Virus record (IMG/VR): IMGVR_UViG_3300020383_000016
Span: 1 to 36,343 of that record
Source: a virus
Strand: one strand, 5' to 3'
Length of the DNA stretch: 36,343 nt
The notes under the pieces were generated by a model. That model saw nothing but the letters and a program-made list of their open reading frames with translations, was not told the origin of the DNA and made no database searches. Positions 14,546 to 36,343 of this stretch are shown piece after piece (the first letter of the stretch is position 1; each line of letters opens with the position of its first letter). A program made the translations under genes and the position numbers.

Positions 14546-15366
14546 GCCGCATTACTCCCGGCCTGATAGCAACTCGAATGCTGTCGCTGCCACTCGTGAA
14601 ACCTGGCCATTGCCAAGGGCCTTAAGTCGGTCCACCCTTCCGGCCAACCCATCAGCCACTCGACCCATGTCGGGTTCAGCGGGCCACCGTCCGAAGCCAT
14701 CACTGCATGATCGAGGCGGTCGTTCGACCGATCCTCGCCACTCTTGCGGGTCAGGCTGGCCGGGCTGCTTCCCTTGCTCATTGAGGCAACCGGCGTCGGC
14801 CATTTCTTTACGGCTGTCGCCAACCCGTCGCCACTCTTGCTGCTCACTCCCTTGCGGTTGTGGTTCCCGCACACGGTAGGCGTCGGCCACAATCCAGATT
14901 CGCTTTCGCCGGTGCGGGGCGCCCAAGTCATCTGCTCCCAGCACTCCCCACTCCGCATCGAACCCCAGCTCGGCCAAGTCTCCGAGAACTCTTCCGAGCC
15001 CGCGAGAAGTGAGAGCTGGGCTGTTTTCCACGAAGACGAAGCGGGGTCGTACTTCGCCAATGATCCGTCGCATCTCGCCCCACAAGCCGGATCGCTCGCC
15101 ATCGAGGCCGGCGCCTCCGCCAGCAACGGATATGTCCTGACACGGGAATCCGCCCGAAACCACGTCAACAAGGCCTCGCCAAGGTCGGCCGGAAAATGTG
15201 CGAACGTCATCCCATATCGGGAAGGGCGGGAGAATGCCGTCATTCTGTCGGGCGGCAAGAACGCTTGCGGCGTAGGGGTCGAACTCGACAGCGCAGACCG
15301 TGCGCCATCCGAGGAGGTGGCCGCCGAGAATTCCGCCACCAGCGCCTGCGAAAAGAGCCAGCTCAT
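14542..15366 (-). CDS. Second full-length frame overlapping the methyltransferase gene
   Basis: 274 residues in a different frame of the same strand as the cytosine methyltransferase. It begins MSWLFSQALVAEFSAATSSD, then SALSSSTPTPQAFLPPDRMT, SLAKYDPASSSWKTAQLSLL, WPSWGSMRSGECWE, LWPTPTVCGNH and finally LNPTWVEWLMGWPEGWTDL. From memory these blocks recur in a phage protein family found near C5-methyltransferase genes. Operon context supports it: the upstream gene ends TGA directly before this ATG (TGAATG), and its own stop overlaps the next start (ATGA at 14542-14545), whereas the methyltransferase frame stops 10 bp earlier. No known domain; function unknown, perhaps methyltransferase-related. 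Confidence 0.7.
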   Translation of the reverse strand: MSWLFSQALVAEFSAATSSDGARSALSSSTPTPQAFLPPDRMTAFSRPSRYGMTFAHFPADLGEALLTWFRADSRVRTYPLLAEAPASMASDPACGARCDGSLAKYDPASSSWKTAQLSLLAGSEEFSETWPSWGSMRSGECWEQMTWAPRTGESESGLWPTPTVCGNHNRKGVSSKSGDGLATAVKKWPTPVASMSKGSSPASLTRKSGEDRSNDRLDHAVMASDGGPLNPTWVEWLMGWPEGWTDLRPLAMARFHEWQRQHSSCYQAGSNAA

Positions 15367-15370
15367 TCAA
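14552..15370 (-). CDS. DNA cytosine-5 methyltransferase
   Basis: 272 residues from a TTG at 15370, preceded by AAGGGGG. It has the C5-methyltransferase motifs: I LFAGAGGGILGG (about residues 6-17, S-adenosylmethionine), IV GGFPCQDIS with catalytic Cys77, VI FVFVENSP (Glu115), VIII APHRRKRIWIVA (about 151-162) and X KALGNGQVSR near the end. The target-recognition region between motifs VIII and X is short. The frame is open upstream to an ATG at 15529, but that part is covered by the 82-residue gene, so the TTG is preferred. Probably protects phage DNA from host restriction. Its entire length is overlapped by another same-strand frame starting 4 nt later. Confidence 0.88.
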   Translation of the reverse strand: MNELALFAGAGGGILGGHLLGWRTVCAVEFDPYAASVLAARQNDGILPPFPIWDDVRTFSGRPWRGLVDVVSGGFPCQDISVAGGGAGLDGERSGLWGEMRRIIGEVRPRFVFVENSPALTSRGLGRVLGDLAELGFDAEWGVLGADDLGAPHRRKRIWIVADAYRVREPQPQGSEQQEWRRVGDSRKEMADAGCLNEQGKQPGQPDPQEWRGSVERPPRSCSDGFGRWPAEPDMGRVADGLAGRVDRLKALGNGQVSRVAATAFELLSGRE

Positions 15371-17382: not shown

Positions 17383-18057
17383 ATGATGAAACCGACTTTA
17401 GATATAGGGCCTGCTATCAAAGCCCGTCGACACGCGCGGGGCTGGACCCTGCAACAACTTTGCGACGAGACCGGCGGGGCTATCTACACGAGCCACCTGT
17501 CATCGATCGAGCGCGGCAAAATGACGCCCAACGTGGCCATCGCTGCGGCGATCGCCAAGGCGTTGAGCGTCAGCCTTGATGCACTGATAGAGGAGAGCCG
17601 CGTCGGCGGCTTGCAGATCGCAACCAGCGAAATGGCCCGGCGCGTGCCGGTCATTACTTGGGAGAATGCGGCGCAGTGGGCCGCAAATCCCGACGTAGCA
17701 GGGCTTCCACAGGCCACGCCTTGGGTCTTGCCGCTGGACAACCCACCGGGCCGACAGTTCGCCATGATCGTGAGAGACGAGGCCATGCACGCGCCGAGCG
17801 GGCCAGCCTTTCCGATCGGCTCGACGATCTTCGTCGACCCTACCCGGCAGGCCACGCCAAATGATTTTGTCGTCGGTCACACCGGCGACCCGACCGAGCC
17901 GACCTTCAAAAAGCTGATTCGCGACGGCTCGCAGCGCTACCTGCGCGCGCTCAATCCGCAATTTCCGATATTGCAGGTAGATGATACATTCGAGGTCATC
18001 GGGGTCGTCGTGGGCATGGCCATGCGCCTGCGCAACGGCCTTGTTACAGAAAAATGA
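17383..18057 (+). CDS. CI-type phage repressor lacking self-cleavage residues
   Basis: 224 residues, ATG preceded by GAGGGG. Residues about 10-65 are a lambda-repressor-like helix-turn-helix (WTLQQLCDETGGAIYTSHLS, SSIERGKMTPN). Residues about 90-218 are an S24/LexA-like domain that aligns well with lambda CI, including APSGPAFP, TIFVDP, TFKKLIRDG and LNPQFPI. The active-site Lys is kept (176/177 in FKKLIRD), but the catalytic Ser of the GDSM motif is Ala134 (VRDEAMHAP), and the scissile Ala-Gly is Ala96-Ala97 (ITWENAAQW). So it probably maintains lysogeny but does not cleave itself on RecA activation. Expressed away from the early operon, with a GC-rich hairpin behind it. Confidence 0.9.
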   Translation: MMKPTLDIGPAIKARRHARGWTLQQLCDETGGAIYTSHLSSIERGKMTPNVAIAAAIAKALSVSLDALIEESRVGGLQIATSEMARRVPVITWENAAQWAANPDVAGLPQATPWVLPLDNPPGRQFAMIVRDEAMHAPSGPAFPIGSTIFVDPTRQATPNDFVVGHTGDPTEPTFKKLIRDGSQRYLRALNPQFPILQVDDTFEVIGVVVGMAMRLRNGLVTEK

Positions 18058-18337: not shown

Positions 18338-18348
18338 AAAGGAATAAC

Positions 18349-21300
18349 ATGACACGCAACCCAGCAGCGACGGGCCTCGCCGGCTTCTACCGGGAACGCT
18401 TCAACAGCGACCCCTATGCCCTCATGGCCTACTTCGAGCGCGAGATCGACGCGCTCGCCGCCGGCGTCGGCATCGAATGGTCATCCATCAGCGCCGACAT
18501 CAATCTCGGCGGAGGCAAGTACCGCGGCAAGATCGCCGCCACCGAGAAGCGCTTCAAGAACAAGGTCATGGTTTGGGGCGACACCAAGCGCGCCGAGCAG
18601 GGCTTCGACTTCCCCTTTCTTACCTTCAACAACAACGTCGCCAGCATCGACCCCGAGACCTGGTCAGGCCTCGACGCGCTCTGGCGGCTGTACAAAGAGC
18701 AGGGCGGCGAGTCTGTTGGCGATGCCAAGCATGCCGCGTGGCTCAAGCGGCAGGCCGACAAGGCTGCCGAGCGCGAGGCGCGGCGCGCCGAGCGCGAGCG
18801 CCACGAACGCCACCTCGCCGAGCTGATCACCGGCGAAAAGAACGCCTATGAAATGGCGTGGTTCCGCGGCGGCGAGCAGCGCTTCGGCTATTGGAGCGAG
18901 CGTGCCAAGGCCGAGCGTCACGACACCGTCGTCGCCCTCGGCGACGAGGACGGCAGCGCCCCCTACCTGGTCAAGAAAGGCGTCGGCGATATCGCCCAGG
19001 TCGTGCAGCTCAAGCGCATGTGCGACCGCCTCGGCGAGTTCACCGCGGTGCCCCTGCAGAACGTCGCCGGCGACTTCCTCGGCCTGCAGCGACTCTATGC
19101 CGACAAGAAACTGCAGGGAACCGGCGTCAAGATGGACGGCGCCCACTGCGTGATAGGCGACCTCGAGACCGCCAAGCGGCGCTATGTCGTCGAAGGCTTT
19201 GCCACCGGCGCGAGCATCTTTCTCGCCGAGGCCACCGGCGGCAACGACGTCGCCGTCATCGTCGCCTTCAACGCCGGCAACCTGGCCAAGGTCTGCCGCG
19301 ACTTCCAGCATCACCACCCCGGCTGGCGGCTGATCAACGGTGCCGATAACGACCGCTGGACCCCGGCCGGTAACGCCGGTGTGCTCGCCGCGCTCGAAAT
19401 CCACCGCGACATGGGCCACTGGGCCGTGCTGCCCAACTTCGACACCCTGATCGAGGAGGGCGTCGTCGAGGCCTCGGCCATCTACGCCAAGAGCGCTCAG
19501 GGCAAAGGCCCGACCGACTGGAATGACTACCACCTGATGGCCGGTCTCGAGGCCACCCGCAAGGCCCTGCGTTCCCGCGAGGTAAATCTGCGCGCCGAGC
19601 CGGCATGGTTCGACTATACCCTGCAGCGCCTGCCGCACACCGGCCTCGGCTGCGAGAAAGCCGCCCTGTCGGCGATCGCCGCCGGTATGATGCTCGTGCC
19701 GATCAAGTTCGGTACTCGCGAGGTCGTCGAGGCCGTCCTCGAGCGCCTGCCCGGCGGTGTCCAGGTCAATCGATTCAAGATCAAATCGCGCGCCATGTGG
19801 CTGGCGAAAATCAAGATGAACCAGGCCCGCGAGCTGCGCAGCTTTTCCCCCGACGCCCTTTCGCGCGTCAACCACCTCAAGGTGCCTGGCGTGCGCGGCG
19901 AGCACGGCAATACCCTGCTGCCCGAGCACCTGGCCTGCCTGGTCGACAGCCTCGAGGGCTTCGTCATCGTGCGCGCGCCCATGGGCTCGGGAAAGACCGA
20001 GAAGCTGATCGCGCCGCTCATGCAGGACGCCCCGAAAGCGGCCTACATCGCCCACCGTATCAGCCTGATCGGCGACGCCGCCTATCGCCTCAACACCCAG
20101 CACTATCAGCAGGTATGCGCCGCCGAAATGCCCGACGTCTCGCACTTGTCCTGCTGCGTCAATTCGCTGACCAATCCCAAGTTCTACAACACCGACGGTC
20201 GATCATGGTTCACCACCTGCGACACGTTGTGCATCGACGAAGCCAGCCAGGTGGTGCGCCACACCACCACCGGGCCCGTCGATTCACCAGTGCGCGTCAT
20301 GGACGCCCTGACCGACGCCATGGCTGCCAGTCGCCGCACGATCCTTTGCGACGCTGACGCCAACGACTCGGTCATCGAACTGTGCGAGATGGCCAACCCC
20401 GACAAGCCGATCACCGTCATCGAGGTCGACGGCACCGCCGATCATATCCGGGTCGACCATTCCGACGACGAAAGCGTCTGGCAGCACGCCCTCGAGCTGA
20501 TCACCAAGGGGCGCCGCGTCCTGGTCGCGAACGACTCGGCCGAAAGCGCCAAGAAACTGGCCGCCGCGGTCGAGGAGCGCAACCCCGACGCCCGCATTCT
20601 GCTCGTCCACAAGGACAGTAAAGCCAACCCCGCCGTCGAGGCCTTCCTCGATCGCCCCAACGCCGAGGCCACCAAGTACGACGTGCTGATCTACTCGCCG
20701 GCGATCTCGAGCGGTGTCTCGATCACCGTCTCTCACTTCGAGCACCACATCGGCATTTTCAGCGGCAACACCGTCAGCCCCGCCGACGCCGTGCAGATGC
20801 TACGCCGTGACCGCACCGCTCGGCACTACCTGGTCGGCATCGGTCACACCAACAAGCAAAGCGTCACTGATCGCGAGGCGCTTTTTCGCGGTTTGGTCGC
20901 TGCCGACGTCGTCGCCTGCGAGTATGAGGAGACCACCGACGAGATCCTGCTGCGCCGACACAAGACCGTGTTCGACGAGCTCTATCTCTCGTGCCGCGTC
21001 AGCGAGAACAAGGCCCGCAACAACTTCGCCAACACGCTGCTCTTGATGCTTTACGCCGACGGCTACCAGGTGAACCACGTGGCCACCGACAAGGACGCCG
21101 TCGATGCCTCTCGAAGGAACCGCAAGAAAGCCGGCGAGATCGTGTTCAGTAATCGCCTGACGCTGCTGCAGTCGGTCGACACGCCCGACGAGGAGGCGTT
21201 CGCCCGCATGAACCGGCAGGAGATGCGTAGCGAGGCCGAGCAGGCCCAGGTCGACCGATACAACATCGTCCATCAGCTCGGCGTAGACGAGATCAGCGAG

Positions 21301-22143
21301 GACCACGTCAAGTTCTTCGACGATCACGGTATCGCCAAGGTCGTGGCACTCGAGCTGCTACAGGCCACCGAAGACCAGGCGCGCGAGTATGATCGCGCCC
21401 AGCGAAACGCCCGCGTCGTGCTCACCAAGCACCGCTGGAAAACGCCGGTGCACCGCTTCATGGTGCGTGTCTTCGAGATCCTTGGTCTCGACCGCTACAC
21501 CGGCGAGGGCGAGTTCAATACGGAGCAATGCCGTCAAATCTTGGCTCTGATCCGCGAAAGCGAAGAAAGCCTTGACATGTACAATGCCATGCGCCTTGGC
21601 CGTCACGTCGACGCCAAGGATAAGCGGGTCTGCGCTACCACCGTCACCAAGTCCATTCTCGAACGCCTCGGTGTCAGCGTCCTCAAGCGTGCGAGCAACG
21701 GCAAGAACCTCTACCGCATCAACCCCGAGGACTGGCAGCAGGTGTCTGCCTACGTCGAGCAGCGTGCCGCGCGTGGCGTCCACTCGCTCGAGACCCATGA
21801 AAGCACCACCTACCACGAGCCCAAGCGCCGCGACGACGACCAGCCGAAGACCAGTGACACCTCGCCCCAGCCGCTCAACCATACGGGTTCGGGCGACAGT
21901 GACACTTTGCAGTTAGGGGGTGATACGCCCACTGAAAAATATCACTGTGATATCAGTCTCCGCGAAAGAACCTTGGCCACCATCGCTCGCTTTAAGCCCT
22001 CCGGTATCACTGTTGATCAACTGGCCAAGGTGATGACGCCGCAAACGCTCAGGATTATCGGGACCTGTCATGACGAGGGGCATGCGCAATGGATGATCGA
22101 GTACACGGCCGGCTTGCTGATGCGTCACTATGCGGTACGATGA
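18349..22143 (+). CDS. repA: Replication protein RepA-like (primase-helicase)
   Basis: 1264 residues from ATG at 18349, preceded by AAAGGA; an in-frame ATG at 18316 lies inside the box array and is less likely. It has a TOPRIM primase part (VVEGFATGASIF from residue 280, acidic partner NGADNDRW near 330) and an SF2-type helicase part with Walker A APMGSGKTEK (about 543-552), LCIDEASQV Walker B near 628, ADANDSVIEL, VLVANDSAES and SPAISSGVS. The size and order match the multifunctional RepA of the linear plasmid prophage N15 (about 1324 residues), which carries primase and helicase activities and whose gene contains the origin. The last ~150 residues are hydrophilic. An origin within this gene is possible but not visible. 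Confidence 0.9.
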   Translation: MTRNPAATGLAGFYRERFNSDPYALMAYFEREIDALAAGVGIEWSSISADINLGGGKYRGKIAATEKRFKNKVMVWGDTKRAEQGFDFPFLTFNNNVASIDPETWSGLDALWRLYKEQGGESVGDAKHAAWLKRQADKAAEREARRAERERHERHLAELITGEKNAYEMAWFRGGEQRFGYWSERAKAERHDTVVALGDEDGSAPYLVKKGVGDIAQVVQLKRMCDRLGEFTAVPLQNVAGDFLGLQRLYADKKLQGTGVKMDGAHCVIGDLETAKRRYVVEGFATGASIFLAEATGGNDVAVIVAFNAGNLAKVCRDFQHHHPGWRLINGADNDRWTPAGNAGVLAALEIHRDMGHWAVLPNFDTLIEEGVVEASAIYAKSAQGKGPTDWNDYHLMAGLEATRKALRSREVNLRAEPAWFDYTLQRLPHTGLGCEKAALSAIAAGMMLVPIKFGTREVVEAVLERLPGGVQVNRFKIKSRAMWLAKIKMNQARELRSFSPDALSRVNHLKVPGVRGEHGNTLLPEHLACLVDSLEGFVIVRAPMGSGKTEKLIAPLMQDAPKAAYIAHRISLIGDAAYRLNTQHYQQVCAAEMPDVSHLSCCVNSLTNPKFYNTDGRSWFTTCDTLCIDEASQVVRHTTTGPVDSPVRVMDALTDAMAASRRTILCDADANDSVIELCEMANPDKPITVIEVDGTADHIRVDHSDDESVWQHALELITKGRRVLVANDSAESAKKLAAAVEERNPDARILLVHKDSKANPAVEAFLDRPNAEATKYDVLIYSPAISSGVSITVSHFEHHIGIFSGNTVSPADAVQMLRRDRTARHYLVGIGHTNKQSVTDREALFRGLVAADVVACEYEETTDEILLRRHKTVFDELYLSCRVSENKARNNFANTLLLMLYADGYQVNHVATDKDAVDASRRNRKKAGEIVFSNRLTLLQSVDTPDEEAFARMNRQEMRSEAEQAQVDRYNIVHQLGVDEISEDHVKFFDDHGIAKVVALELLQATEDQAREYDRAQRNARVVLTKHRWKTPVHRFMVRVFEILGLDRYTGEGEFNTEQCRQILALIRESEESLDMYNAMRLGRHVDAKDKRVCATTVTKSILERLGVSVLKRASNGKNLYRINPEDWQQVSAYVEQRAARGVHSLETHESTTYHEPKRRDDDQPKTSDTSPQPLNHTGSGDSDTLQLGGDTPTEKYHCDISLRERTLATIARFKPSGITVDQLAKVMTPQTLRIIGTCHDEGHAQWMIEYTAGLLMRHYAVR

Positions 22144-22200: not shown

Positions 22201-22467
22201 ATGGCATTGACGATGGAAAGCCGCGACCAAGCGGCTCTGCACACCAGCCGAGCCCAAGCGCTGCTTGCGCTGACCTCGGCTGCTGGGCACGAGGTACAGC
22301 AGCACCAGCTCCTCGAGGTGGTGGGCATCGCCCTCGAGGAGATCGACGCCGCGAGCCGCGCGCTCGCCGGCGGCGACACGAAAAAGCCGGGCATTCGCCC
22401 GGCTCCGGTCCGCATCACGCCGTGCGATCACGGCGTTGTGTGTCAGCTCTTGACCGCGGCCTCGTAG
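22201..22467 (+). CDS. Small LexA-box-controlled protein, candidate antirepressor
   Basis: 88 residues, ATG preceded by GGGAGGAAC with good spacing. The first 57 residues are helical (MESRDQAALHTSRAQALLAL, VQQHQLLEVVGIALEEIDAA), then a Pro-rich part and a short C-terminus. No family recognised. The 3' end runs through the protelomerase terminator and 25 bp into the convergent protelomerase gene, so the last third may be an accidental extension, but no earlier stop exists. An SOS box precedes the gene, and the phage repressor looks non-cleavable, so an SOS-induced antirepressor (like Tum of phage 186 or the small Gifsy antirepressors) is the leading hypothesis. Confidence 0.6.
   Translation: MALTMESRDQAALHTSRAQALLALTSAAGHEVQQHQLLEVVGIALEEIDAASRALAGGDTKKPGIRPAPVRITPCDHGVVCQLLTAAS
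22381..22404 (-). terminator. Protelomerase terminator
   Basis: AGCCGGGC (22385-22392) pairs with GCCCGGCT (22397-22404) around ATTC; on the minus strand the stem is followed by TTTTT. It lies 39 bp beyond the protelomerase stop. Confidence 0.85.
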
Positions 22468-24017
22468 GCCTCCCGCATGGCTGCCATCCGATCGCTCGCC
22501 ACCACCTTGGCCACCTCGACGCCGTTGACCTTCGCGGTGGCCTCGAACTGGCCATCCTCTCGTCGGTGCGCGACGAGCTTCGGTTTCGGCGCCTCGACAG
22601 CGCGCGGTGGCTGGAAGGCCGCCGCCAGAATCTCCCGGTTCGGGGTGGCGAGCGCCTCCTCGGCAATCTCGAGATAGTCCTTGATCACCGGCCTCGAGGC
22701 GATCTTCTCGCGCAGCATGTACGACTGCGTGATCGGCGCCTCGGGTTCCTGCTCGACCTGCGCCTTGACCCACTCATGCGCCCGCGCCATCGGCTCCCGC
22801 TTCAATATCTCGGGGTGCTCGTCCAGGGCGCGAAGCGCCGCGATGCGGCTCGGGTACCGCGGCGCCTCCTCGGCGGCCGGCCTGGTGTAATCGATCTTGA
22901 ACGCCTTATAGCTCTCCTGCGTATCCATGTCCTCGTGGCCGAGCTGCTCGCGCCAGAAAATGGTTTCGTTGACGTTGCGCCAGCGCGGGTCGGTGGCGAA
23001 ATGAGTCTCGAACACGATGCGGGCCCAGATGGCGCGAGAGTCCTTGAAGGTCCGCGCGTCGCTGCCAAAGGTGCGCTTGGTCAGCTCGTTCAACGTCTTC
23101 GCGACCCGGCGGTTGAACTCGGTATGGTCGAGGTCCTGCAGCTCGCGCACCTCGGGCAGCGCCCGCATCGTCTCGAACGCCTCGACGACCTGGTCGGCCT
23201 TGAGCAGCGTGTAAATCCGGTAGCTCGCCCCATAGTCGACCCCGGTGCGCTTCTTCGCCTGGCCGCGAAACTCGACCTCGTACTCGCCCACCGCCTTGAA
23301 CCGGCCCAGCACCAGCACCTCCCACATGCGCCGCCCAGTGACGATCGCCAGCGCCAGCGCCATATAGGAATAGAACGGCTCGTACTCGCCTTCCTCGTTG
23401 GCCCGGCGCGCGGTCAGTAGCTCGCCGACCTTGTCCATCAGCCACCAGTAGTTGATGCGCACCGTGTTCGTCGCCCGGTGCTCGAGCACTTCCTGGTGCT
23501 CGCTGGCCAAGCTCGCCTTGGTCGCCTTCGGCAGGCGCAGGTGGCGCATCACCTCGTGGTCGAGCTTCATGTCGACCAGGTCGTCGTGGGCCGCGTCGTC
23601 GCCGGCCTGCAACATCTTGTTGACCAGCTCGCGGTGCGTGAGGCGAAGCTCGGTCACGTCGTCGATCGCCGCCAGCGCGAGGATCTCGTCGGCCCATTTG
23701 GGGTGCCGCTTCGCCAGCCGCTCGGCTTCCTTCGGTATCGAATGGTGCCGCCAGTTCTGCGCCGTGATCGCCTGCCGCGCCCGCGTCAGGTACCGGCGAT
23801 AGCTCGAGGCCTTGAGCTTCGCCTCGGGCCGCCGCCGGCCGTCCTCGTACAGCGCGTTCTTGAACTTGGTCGCGATGCGCTTCATCGCCTGCGTTTTCTG
23901 GCTGCGTGACATTTCCTCGTCGCGGTCGGCCTCGCGAACCTCGTTAACCATCGCCTCGATCAGCTCGCCAAGCTCGACCTTCTGCCTTGTTTGTCCGCCA
24001 ACGTTTCCCGTCGCCAT
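22443..24017 (-). CDS. tel: Protelomerase (telomere resolvase, TelN/TelK family)
   Basis: 524 residues from ATG at 24017, which has GGAGGGCAGG just upstream; the frame is open to 24086. The enzyme cuts and rejoins telRL to form hairpin ends of the linear prophage. Catalytic residues expected from TelN/TelK are visible: Arg in VTGRRMWEVL (about 229), Lys in GQAKKRTG (255/256), Arg in FKDSRAIWAR (328), His in LGHEDMDTQ (361) and the nucleophile Tyr in ESYKAFKID (370). N-terminal residues 1-130 form the DNA-clamping helical part and the C-terminal ~150 a winged or stirrup-like domain. It is shorter than TelN (631) and closer to the size of the marine phage enzymes. The target palindrome lies 130 bp upstream. 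Confidence 0.93.
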   Translation of the reverse strand: MATGNVGGQTRQKVELGELIEAMVNEVREADRDEEMSRSQKTQAMKRIATKFKNALYEDGRRRPEAKLKASSYRRYLTRARQAITAQNWRHHSIPKEAERLAKRHPKWADEILALAAIDDVTELRLTHRELVNKMLQAGDDAAHDDLVDMKLDHEVMRHLRLPKATKASLASEHQEVLEHRATNTVRINYWWLMDKVGELLTARRANEEGEYEPFYSYMALALAIVTGRRMWEVLVLGRFKAVGEYEVEFRGQAKKRTGVDYGASYRIYTLLKADQVVEAFETMRALPEVRELQDLDHTEFNRRVAKTLNELTKRTFGSDARTFKDSRAIWARIVFETHFATDPRWRNVNETIFWREQLGHEDMDTQESYKAFKIDYTRPAAEEAPRYPSRIAALRALDEHPEILKREPMARAHEWVKAQVEQEPEAPITQSYMLREKIASRPVIKDYLEIAEEALATPNREILAAAFQPPRAVEAPKPKLVAHRREDGQFEATAKVNGVEVAKVVASDRMAAMREAYEAAVKS

Positions 24018-24035
24018 GTCCTGCCCTCCGATTGA

Positions 24036-24304
24036 TACATAGATAACCCTAATAACAAGACTAGACCATACAAACCGACATAGCAAGCCCTAATGCATCG
24101 ACATGCGACATAGTAAGCCATATAACAAGATGCTCCAATTAAGGGATAGGGCCACCTATGCCACCACGCTTGCCCCATTCTATACGTATAGAATGGGGCC
24201 ATTATGGTGGCATAGGTAGCCCTAGAAGTAGGGAGGGGTGCATATGTCACACTTGGGAGGGCTATCTATGTCAGGATATGGCGGGCAATGGCACAGACAG
24301 CCCT
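24036..24304. repeat. 15-bp motif array flanking the telomere
   Basis: A motif close to GACATAGATAGCCCT occurs on the plus strand at 24036-24050, 24077-24091, 24107-24121, 24209-24223 and 24290-24304, and on the minus strand at 24148-24162 and 24258-24272. Two of the seven copies form the outer arms of the telomere palindrome. Copies differ at 1 to 4 positions. They could bind the protelomerase or another factor that controls tel or resolution. Confidence 0.6.
24147..24224. other. Telomere resolution site (telRL), imperfect 78-bp palindrome
   Basis: Centre between 24185 and 24186. The inner 28 bp (24172-24199) are a perfect palindrome with core ATTCTATACGTATAGAAT; beyond that, outer arms extend to 24147 and 24224, with 34 of 39 pairs matching (mismatches at 24153, 24167-24169 and 24171). 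The inner CCATT...AATGG frame is like the N15 telRL centre. It lies between the protelomerase and parA genes, the expected location. Confidence 0.9.
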
Positions 24305-24538
24305 ACCATATGAAAGGGGAAGCCCTACGCATGAAGTCATTCAGCCATAAAGGGAGGACAACCAAGAGTCATGTATCAGAAACGCCCACGAGAGCCGCAA
24401 ACAGCGGCGACATAGAAAGGACGGGGCGCCCAGGGGTCGGGCAAACCCGCGCGGAACCCGCATGGTTGAAGGCTTCACGACGGTGAAGAAAGGACAGGCG
24501 CGGAAATGGTCACGGGGTAGGCGATAAAATGTCATGTT
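24305..24538. other. Telomere-proximal region without a supported gene
   Basis: 234 bp between the telomere array and the parA promoter. No gene with convincing start or composition was found. It holds further AGCCCTA-like fragments (e.g. at 24321) and, near 24531, the start of the phased boxes of parA. In the linear prophage this lies close to one hairpin end. Confidence 0.5.
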
Positions 24539-24574
24539 GTGCTTTTGTGCTTTTGTGCTAAAGTGCATTTGCAC
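24539..24574 (+). repeat. 8-bp phased tetramer-box array, site D, at the parA promoter
   Basis: GTGC at 24539, 24547, 24555 and 24563 and GCAC at 24571, all 8 bp apart, with TTTT, TTTT, TAAA and ATTT spacers. A possible promoter (TTGTGC 24537-24542, 16 bp, extended -10 TGCTAAAGT with TAAAGT at 24559-24564) is embedded in the boxes, which suggests autoregulation of the partition operon. Confidence 0.75.
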
Positions 24575-24599
24575 ATCAACGAAATGAGGCTTTTCATCG

Positions 24600-25250
24600 A
24601 TGCCTACCGTTATCGCGGTACTCAACCAGAAAGGGGGGACCGGCAAGACGACCACCGCGACCAACGTCGCGAGCTGCCTTGTCAGTGTCCATCACGCGAA
24701 AGTGTTATTGGTCGATCTCGACCCCCAGGGCTCGGCCAGCGATTGGAGCGCGGCGCGCGGCGAGGAGCCGGGGCCCGGCCAGGTGCCGGTAGTACGCATG
24801 GGCCGAGCGCTGGCCCGCGACCTGCCCGGCGTGGCGCACAGCTATGACTATGTCGTCATCGACGGCACGCCCCAAATCAGCGAGCTGGCCACGGCAGCGG
24901 TCAAGGCGGCCGACGTGGTGATCATCCCGGTACAGCCCTCGCCCTATGACATTTGGGCCTGCGAGGAGCTGGTCGAGCTGATCAAGGACCGCCAGGAAAT
25001 CACCGACGGTCGGCAGCCGCGAGCGGCGATGGTGGTCTCGCGCGCCATCAAGGGAACGCGCCTCGAGGGCGAGGTATGGCAGGCGCTCGAGGGCTACGGC
25101 CTGCCCGTCTTCAAGGCCGGCACCTGCCAGCGACAAGCCTACGCCAACACCGTGAAGACCGGCGGCAGCGTCGTCGACCTGCCCACTACCGATAAGGCCC
25201 GCCAGGAAATCGAAAGCCTGACCGCCGAGCTGCTGGAGTTCGCCAAATGA
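24600..25250 (+). CDS. parA: ParA partition ATPase (type Ib)
   Basis: 216 residues without an N-terminal helix-turn-helix, i.e. a type Ib ParA. It has the deviant Walker A KGGTGKTT (residues 11-18), Walker A' LLVDLDPQGSASDW (Asp near 40), and Walker B-like YVVIDGTPQISE. It should form nucleoid-associated filaments or gradients that move the plasmid prophage. Ends in ATGA overlap with the next gene, forming a parAB operon downstream of box array D. Such ATPases are typical for low-copy plasmids and linear prophages. Confidence 0.93.
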   Translation: MPTVIAVLNQKGGTGKTTTATNVASCLVSVHHAKVLLVDLDPQGSASDWSAARGEEPGPGQVPVVRMGRALARDLPGVAHSYDYVVIDGTPQISELATAAVKAADVVIIPVQPSPYDIWACEELVELIKDRQEITDGRQPRAAMVVSRAIKGTRLEGEVWQALEGYGLPVFKAGTCQRQAYANTVKTGGSVVDLPTTDKARQEIESLTAELLEFAK

Positions 25251-25564
25251 CCGACCGCAAGAAAGCCCCCGCCCTCACCGCTGGGCGACCGAGCCGAACC
25301 GATCGCCCCGAGGTCGAGCGCGCGCGCCGCGACGTGACCGCCACCGACGAGCCCGAGAAGCGCCTGCCTCCGGTCTACGCACGGCCCAGCTATCACCAGC
25401 GCCTGCAGGCCATCCGCTCCATGAGCCGCGACAACGTGCCGGCTAAGGCGCTGCTGCTCGAGGCGGTCGAGGATCTGTTCGAGAAATATGCCAGCGGGAA
25501 GGGGCGCTATCCCATCGCGCGGCAAGCCCAACTTGAGCGAATGCTCGAGGAACTGCGCGACTAG
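25247..25564 (+). CDS. parB: Small ParB/ParG-like centromere-binding protein
   Basis: 105 residues. The first 40 are disordered and basic/acidic (KKAPALTAGRPSRTDRPEVE), the rest is helical (YHQRLQAIRSMSRDNVPAKA, LEAVEDLFEKYASG). Position directly after a type Ib parA, with ATGA overlap, size and a flexible N-terminus followed by a ribbon-helix-helix-sized domain fit the ParG type of partner rather than a large ParB. ParG binds tetramer boxes spaced by 4 bp; the GTGC boxes found here have that layout. Identity is inferred from context. Confidence 0.7.
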   Translation: MTDRKKAPALTAGRPSRTDRPEVERARRDVTATDEPEKRLPPVYARPSYHQRLQAIRSMSRDNVPAKALLLEAVEDLFEKYASGKGRYPIARQAQLERMLEELRD

Positions 25565-35318: not shown

Positions 35319-35855
35319 CTACCAGTCGATGGCTTCCAGCGCGGCCCGGTCCTCGGCCTGACGAGCGGCCTTGATGTCATCTTCCAGGCGCTGACGGCGC
35401 CCCGTGGCATTGCCGTGCGCTGCGACGAAGGCGTCGGCCTTAGCGAGGATTCGCGTCACCAACTCGCCCTTTCCGATCGGCCGTTCAGCGAGCATGGCGT
35501 CGAGATATGGCGTCGCCGGCTCGGTGCCGCCGATCTCTTGCCATTCACCCCAGGTGCGCGCCTCGCGCTCCTGCTTGTCGAACGACAGGGTCTCAGCGTC
35601 GGGATACTCCACCAGGATCGTCGCCATGACTCGGGTGTAGCCGTCATTGATGCGGCCGATGGCCTGGTCGACGACCTCGTCGATGGGCGTCTCCGGTGGC
35701 GCGCTGAACTCGCTACCGTCGTAGGTCCATCCCACATCAACATGCTCGTTACAATCCACCCACTCGATGGACGGATGAAAGCGGCCGCCAGGGTCTATAT
35801 CCGTGAGTTCGGCCACGGTGCCATTTTCGATTCGTGCCCACATAGTTGTCACCAT
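35319..35855 (-). CDS. G: Tail fibre assembly/chaperone protein
   Basis: 178 residues. MWARIENGTVAELTDIDPGG and RFHPSIEWVDCNEH (Met5, at 35843, may be the true start) are typical of the N-terminal domain of tail-fibre assembly proteins, and the C-terminal AKADAFVAAHGNATGRRQRL/EDDIKAARQAEDRAALEAID is the usual helical end. It should help fold the fibre encoded directly before it. The start overlaps the fibre stop by 7 nt. Confidence 0.8.
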   Translation of the reverse strand: MVTTMWARIENGTVAELTDIDPGGRFHPSIEWVDCNEHVDVGWTYDGSEFSAPPETPIDEVVDQAIGRINDGYTRVMATILVEYPDAETLSFDKQEREARTWGEWQEIGGTEPATPYLDAMLAERPIGKGELVTRILAKADAFVAAHGNATGRRQRLEDDIKAARQAEDRAALEAIDW

Positions 35856-36343
35856 TCGATGATTACTCCGCCTGGCGCTCCATTGCCGCCATTTTTGCTG
35901 CTAGTCCCATCGCCCCCGCCGCCTCCGCCACCAGGCCAGTGGCCGTGCTGACCATGACCTGTCACCGATGCATCAGACAAAGACGTACCGCCCACACCGC
36001 CACAGCCTCCTCCTGCACCGCCGTACCCCTTGACGCCGGTCGAGCCATCTGTCTCGAAACGCACGCCGAAGCTGCCTGCGCCGGTCGACCCGTTGTAGTC
36101 ACCGCCAGAGCCTGCGCCACCCTTTCCACCAGTACCAAATGACATCCCGGCTTGTCCGCCAGTGGCGCTCATATACGGCCCGAAGCTGCTGGTGCCTCCG
36201 TTGTCCTTTCCGCTGCCATTCGTGTCACCGGCTCCCCCGGCTCCCACAGTGATGCTGACCGTATCGACGCCTGAGAGGTCGACCATTCCTCGGGCTATCC
36301 CACCACCACCGCCGCCGCCACAATAGTAAAGAGAACTCCGCCC
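35849..36343 (-). CDS. H: Tail fibre, glycine-rich C-terminal part (continues past the window end)
   Basis: The frame enters open at 36343 with GRSSLYYCGGGGGGIARGMV and reads DLSGVDTVSITVGAGGAGDT, then GGTSSFGPYMSATGGQAGM and a long Gly/Ser/Asn/Asp-rich repeat-like stretch, ending in GGNGAPGGVIIEW. Glycine-rich polyglycine-II-like tips (VSITVGAGGAG... to GVIIEW) are known receptor-binding ends of fibres and adhesins. The frame is in phase with the fibre N-terminus that is open at position 1, so both are probably one gene interrupted by the window ends. A Met at 36286 is not a likely start. Confidence 0.85.
   Translation of the reverse strand, partial: GRSSLYYCGGGGGGGIARGMVDLSGVDTVSITVGAGGAGDTNGSGKDNGGTSSFGPYMSATGGQAGMSFGTGGKGGAGSGGDYNGSTGAGSFGVRFETDGSTGVKGYGGAGGGCGGVGGTSLSDASVTGHGQHGHWPGGGGGGGDGTSSKNGGNGAPGGVIIEW

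Follow-up and report, generated by a model that had tools for sequence, protein, structure and literature searches.

A probable hairpin-telomere resolution site of known type beside the protelomerase gene of a contractile-tailed phage

In the window, by which we mean the whole 36,343-nt stretch of DNA analysed here, a palindrome at 24147-24224 almost certainly serves as telRL in a temperate telomere phage with a contractile tail, one whose relatives include phiHAP-1, VP882 and Pseudomonas linear plasmid prophages. Telomere resolvases make linear DNA molecules whose ends are closed, each enzyme acting on a target of its own. By comparison with these relatives, the site found here is of a known type common to other telomere phages and represents no new cutting system. 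The sequence comparisons directly support the site, the enzyme family with its catalytic residues, and the core and arm architecture and hairpin-end assembly signatures seen in relatives. An earlier note on this DNA had described the hairpin-telomere resolution site of a linear plasmid prophage beside its protelomerase; homology, position, the conserved core and the hairpin-end assembly signatures strongly favor that description of the site, and its sub-claims of uniqueness and a longer arm fail, as set out below.

The palindrome and the adjoining protelomerase gene

The features of the site and of the genes around it are as follows.

24147-24224, no strand: telRL palindrome, from base pairing, shuffles and folding
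24172-24199, no strand: perfect 28-bp core GCCCCATTCTATAC/GTATAGAATGGGGC (the stroke marks the center), counterpart of N15 telO; its inner 26 bp are identical to both NZ_CP096940 junctions
24183-24188, no strand: TACGTA, the 6 bp predicted to separate the scissile phosphates, from the 6-bp stagger of all known protelomerases (PMC3558466)
22443-24017, minus strand: protelomerase, 524 aa, with TelK_N, catalytic and stirrup domains and a C-terminal dsRBM-like mini-domain (residues about 473-524), from Pfam, alignment and model
24600-25250, plus strand: ParA partition ATPase, NF041546 above cut-off
25247-25564, plus strand: small protein overlapping parA, possibly a ParB-like partner judging from its position; phrog_15913, function unknown, no Pfam match at E 0.001
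18346-22143, plus strand: replication protein, CyRepA1 family with Toprim domain, from Pfam/PHROG-type family matches
17383-18057, plus strand: S24/HTH prophage repressor, from domain/family matches

The palindrome is centered between 24185 and 24186, and 34 of the 39 pairs formed by its 39-bp halves are matched. The innermost 14 pairs are perfect and form the core; the five mismatches lie mostly in the stretch adjoining the core, where the two arms are unlike. The coordinates and counts given in the earlier note for the palindrome and its core were reproduced exactly. With a match scored +1 and a mismatch -2, it scores 24, more than any other palindrome in the window. Dinucleotide shuffling of the whole window (100 shuffles) never gave more than 14, and shuffling of the 2 kb around the site (1000 shuffles) never more than 11, which rules out a chance palindrome. 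Folded as single-stranded DNA it reaches -32.2 kcal/mol (z = -8.7), a value equaled in none of 200 shuffles. Its center is 169 bp upstream of the protelomerase start codon, in AT-rich intergenic DNA (GC 0.49 at 24018-24340 versus 0.65 window-wide).

The protelomerase ORF is intact, and Pfam TelK_N, ResT-TelK_cat (E 2.1e-30) and TelK_stirrup all match it above cut-off. Its best solved homolog by both sequence and fold is TelK of Klebsiella phage phiKO2 (PDB 2v6e), an enzyme whose site has a CGCGCG center: the sequence match has an E of 6e-67, and a structure model built from 47 aligned sequences (mean pLDDT 83.9) gives Z scores of 22.5 for TelK, 21.9 for TelA and 14.0 for ResT, with 435 residues aligned to 2v6e at an rmsd of 5.5. 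The catalytic residues, assigned by alignment to TelK and TelA with their roles taken from the TelA study (PMC3558466), are R230, K255, R328, H361 and Y370; none of them varies in alignments of 25 and of 47 protelomerases. Pfam and the alignments thereby agree with the earlier statement that the palindrome adjoins a protelomerase gene with all expected catalytic residues. In the protein tree the enzyme sits on a long branch beside the Pseudomonas/Stutzerimonas group, the Halomonas group being placed outside, and its identity to the relatives in the tree does not exceed 57%. With the window, a deep-branching protelomerase and its cognate site join the group of enzymes with TACGTA-centered sites.

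The five arm mismatches, and the differing arms next to the core, could also mark a degenerate or dead telRL in a decayed prophage that is cut no more. We consider this extremely unlikely, since the 28-bp core is perfect, the protelomerase ORF retains all of its catalytic residues, and the sites of N15 (26 of 28 pairs) and VP882 (12 perfect pairs per half) are also imperfect in phage genomes.

Terminase, portal, capsid, tail sheath, baseplate and tape-measure-like genes identify a contractile-tailed phage, and the gene set of a linear plasmid prophage is present in the form of CyRepA1 replication, ParA partition and S24 repressor genes. No integrase was found among the proteins scanned, which represent part of the window's ORFs. 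A tail-fiber frame exits both contig ends in register (1-1113 and 35849-36343, minus strand; 371 and 164 residues), as if a closed genome had been opened inside the gene; its C-terminal 164-aa fragment had no match in phages.

Core and hairpin-end assembly signatures in relatives

Searches for protelomerase relatives yielded 36 records from phages and 231 from plasmids, and located relatives in 52 IMG/VR loci among 88 pattern matches and in 9 genome loci among 35. The genome-record relatives are from Pseudomonas, Stutzerimonas and Halomonas, with one labeled Spirulina; this last (L066, NZ_JAIHOM010000047.1) is a Halomonas-type telomere phage contig in an assembly labeled Spirulina subsalsa, and it probably derives from an associated bacterium. 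At least 1.5 kb of DNA lies upstream of the gene in 28 of those 61 loci, and the other 33 start near the gene. An even palindrome centered on TATAC/GTATA is present upstream in 26 of the 28, at 165-333 bp from the gene match, and six of the 33 loci that start near the gene still show it. The two exceptions among the 28 are L072, where a palindrome about 290 nt upstream of the gene has the odd center TATACAGTATA, with one extra A between the halves, and the VP882-like locus L118, which has no core despite 3 kb of upstream DNA and keeps arm-like repeats.

One half-site position varies with clade. Among tree rows with a readable core, position 7 is T in all 11 Halomonas/Vibrio rows and A in all 29 rows made up of the window and Pseudomonas. 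Many of these rows are close kin, and on the tree the difference counts as one change, not forty. Such a matched set of enzymes and sites is material for testing how protelomerases read their targets.

Several database records of relatives carry the traces that hairpin ends would be expected to leave in assemblies. The Pseudomonas aeruginosa plasmid NZ_CP096940, recorded as a circle of 77,056 bp, has the appearance of an inverted dimer with a 38,528-bp unit: the 3000 bases at its start exactly complement, in reverse, the 3000 at its end, no mismatch occurs in the 19,742 bp inspected at the internal junction, and both junctions are centered on CCCCATTCTATAC/GTATAGAATGGGG, identical to the 26-bp core of the window. 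Two such junctions occur in NZ_CP102178 (perfect over 19,659 and 3,461 bp) and one in NZ_CP115281 (149 bp perfect), and NZ_AP022474 has a 54-bp perfect half on the tel side; no core was found at the recorded ends of CP075795. More broadly, circular-labeled plasmid records of about 75-79 kb (NZ_CP096940, NZ_CP102178, NZ_CP115281, NZ_AP022474; L004, L005, L006, L008, L055-L058, L060, L061) look like inverted-dimer read-throughs of linear hairpin prophages of about 38 kb.

Contig ends show a corresponding pattern. In 28 of 52 related viral loci (one contig is counted twice among the 52) a contig ends less than 450 nt upstream of the gene, versus about 2 expected at random; for contigs of at least 30 kb the figure is 19 of 35, versus 0.84 expected. 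Of the 28 end-near contigs, 11 start with a readable half-site within 60 nt. Inverted dimers and contig ends at the core are what read-through of hairpin ends, or stopping at them, would give. The depositors labeled the inverted-dimer records circular, and these could instead be real circular dimers or assembly artifacts, which would remove their support for resolution at the core. We regard this as very unlikely: both dimer junctions fall at the telomere core, other assemblies also end there, and PMC13293297 describes, in other linear plasmids, reads that pass from one strand to the other at the hairpins. The Pseudomonas prophage records appear to read through their hairpins, whereas the window keeps an intact telRL in mid-contig, and for that reason its contig represents the unresolved form (virion or circular/replicating).

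The same observations bear on whether the palindrome, lying in the divergent tel-parA intergenic region, might act as an operator or a terminator and be no telomere site. It does lie between divergently transcribed genes, and arm-like repeats occur near the protelomerase start codon. No terminator-like site was found at the palindrome, however, so a transcription terminator there was rejected, and the core is conserved in relatives, whose records become inverted dimers or contig ends at that point. An operator or terminator in place of a telomere site is accordingly highly improbable; that it acts as an operator as well as a telomere is possible. A scan of 23900-24700 gave no sigma-70-type promoter.

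Comparison with known telomere phages and predicted resolution

The closest counterparts of the site are those of Pseudomonas linear plasmid prophages (NZ_CP096940 pNY5520-NR, NZ_CP102178, NZ_AP022474), which share the 26-bp core and have protelomerases 55-57% identical to that of the window. The tel-rep-repressor order is as in the window, with parA at the other end, and their outer arms have inner palindromes such as GGGTGCATGCACCC, where the window has CTATGCCACC. Halomonas phage phiHAP-1 (Hapunavirus) encodes a 54% identical protelomerase, with ParA and replication genes arranged as in the window, and its site has the TACGTA center and a similar outer arm (GGGCCACCTATG). The phiHAP-1 half-site, CCATACTATAC, differs from that of the window by one substitution, at position 7, and its site is a perfect palindrome with 46-bp halves, unlike the imperfect one of the window. 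Vibrio phage VP882 (Hapunavirus) has a 47% identical enzyme, the same center, ParA upstream and a half-site that also differs only at position 7; it carries a LuxR-family gene between tel and rep, whereas none was identified in the gap of about 300 bp in the window.

By gene order and proteins the phage is Hapunavirus-like; it was not assigned to the genus, as 15000-36343 had no megablast match to phiHAP-1 or VP882. The sole megablast matches of 15000-36343 to phages, in two records, are over a stretch of about 350 bp in a DNA methyltransferase gene; this stretch (15023-15369) is 87% identical to Pseudomonas phage VB_PaD_phPA-G (PP083311), which suggests a recent exchange.

Escherichia phage N15 (TelN/telRL) is a more distant member of the same enzyme family, with a protelomerase 31% identical to that of the window and a palindrome and annotated cut site just upstream of the gene. 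Its architecture of a 28-bp core, an arm motif and degenerate flanking copies, as given in PMC12624138, is like that of the window. N15 is a Ravinvirus, whereas the window encodes a contractile-tail set, and the center of the N15 site is CGCGCG, in contrast to TACGTA here. Read towards the center, the 11-nt half-sites are CCATTCTATAC in the window and CCATTATACGC in N15; they are equal in length, with substitutions at positions 2, 3 and 6 from the center, and the CCAT box is equally far from the center in both. The half arm had previously been put at one bp more than in N15, and this does not hold: three substitutions, not an added base pair, separate the two.

The earlier note had further suggested that the core may define a distinct cutting specificity. 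The center does differ from that of N15, and this part stands. TACGTA is not unique to this phage, however, as phiHAP-1, VP882 and the Pseudomonas, Stutzerimonas and Halomonas relatives have it as well, and a specificity peculiar to the window phage alone was therefore rejected. All known protelomerases cut 6 bp apart (PMC3558466), so the two cuts should enclose TACGTA in the window and CGCGCG in N15. That source also describes TelK as cutting a GTATAC center without hairpin formation; because of this, a specificity differing from that of TelN and TelK is likely for the window enzyme, and would be common to the whole group, and an exchange of partners with TelK is not to be assumed.

By analogy with TelK and TelN, a protelomerase dimer would bind the two half-sites of the palindrome and cut both strands via Y370, 6 bp apart, leaving self-complementary TACGTA ends, each of which would fold back and be sealed into a hairpin. 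Thereafter the genome would be maintained as a linear plasmid prophage, in which parA occupies one end and the protelomerase, rep and repressor genes occupy the opposite one. Cutting of 24147-24224, the exact scissile bonds and the lysogenic linear form of this phage are inferred.

Flanking arm-motif copies and the C-terminal mini-domain

Copies of the 17-bp outer-arm motif TAGGGCYACCTATGCCA were located by motif comparison within the palindrome and on both sides of it.

24147-24163, plus strand: left outer-arm motif TAGGGCCACCTATGCCA, inward
24208-24224, minus strand: right outer-arm motif TAGGGCTACCTATGCCA, inward
24035-24051, minus strand: copy, outward, with the protelomerase start codon about 18 bp downstream
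24076-24092, minus strand: copy, outward
24106-24122, minus strand: copy, outward
24233-24249, plus strand: weak copy, outward, par side
24257-24273, plus strand: copy, outward, par side
24289-24305, minus strand: copy, inward, par side

Outside the palindrome the protelomerase side and the par side have three copies each, and all but one of these six point outward; a further weak match, inward, lies at 24311. Shuffles give a mean of 0.15 copies, and none of 200 reaches six. Across the 28 non-duplicate genomes of the group, tel-side copies number 67 outward and 4 inward, par-side copies 44 and 26, and the density of the motif is 9.7 per kb near the site versus 0.25 per kb elsewhere in the loci. 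No shuffle equals the observed count in 23 of the 28 genomes. The motif test found no copies at all in Halomonas getboli (L065), and it gave no significance for N15, phiKO2, PY54 and the Aeromonas plasmid, where 12, 72, 72 and 47 of 200 shuffles, respectively, equaled the observed count. The copies tend to be most similar to the arm of the genome in which they lie (median rank 2 among 27 arms); this own-arm test failed in L065, L070, L083, L084 and L089, for which 16-22 of 27 foreign arms gave a closer match.

N15 has been described (PMC12624138) as having L3/R3 arm motifs beside its 28-bp telO core and degenerate L1/L2 and R1/R2 copies, with binding by TelN CTD1 proposed. The flanking copies in the window resemble these degenerate repeats, and since N15 is described with them the flanking repeats are a known kind of feature. 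Their conservation suggests that telomere function in this group spans a few hundred bp, as proposed for N15. A subtelomeric array of mostly outward arm copies might be bound by protelomerase, possibly via its dsRBM-like domain, as an end-protecting complex that shuts down the protelomerase promoter, a proposal we consider speculative and rather unlikely. If true, it would supply a role for a domain that TelN does not need in assays: according to PMC12624138, no function is known for the C-terminal domains of TelN, and both resolution and end protection proceed without them.

Residues about 473-524 of the protelomerase (22446-22616, minus strand) are modeled as three strands and a helix. Such a shape may resemble the arm-binding domains of integrases; those of Tn916 and lambda integrases were absent from the best 50 structure matches of the C-terminal model. 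The window's own C-terminal domain had no Pfam match at E 10, and with a limit of E 1 Pfam dsrm was matched by 9 of 45 aligned sequences, the best at 3.3e-4. The top solved match of the C-terminal profile was RNase III (1o0w, E 0.007), and the structure matches are mostly to dsRBM proteins, none below E 0.001. Among the matches listed in a literature search linking protelomerases or telomere resolvases with dsRBDs, judged by titles and the starts of abstracts, no such domain was described. That the mini-domain binds the flanking repeats is a guess. N15 TelN, TelK and the PY54 enzyme have ends that align with this mini-domain.
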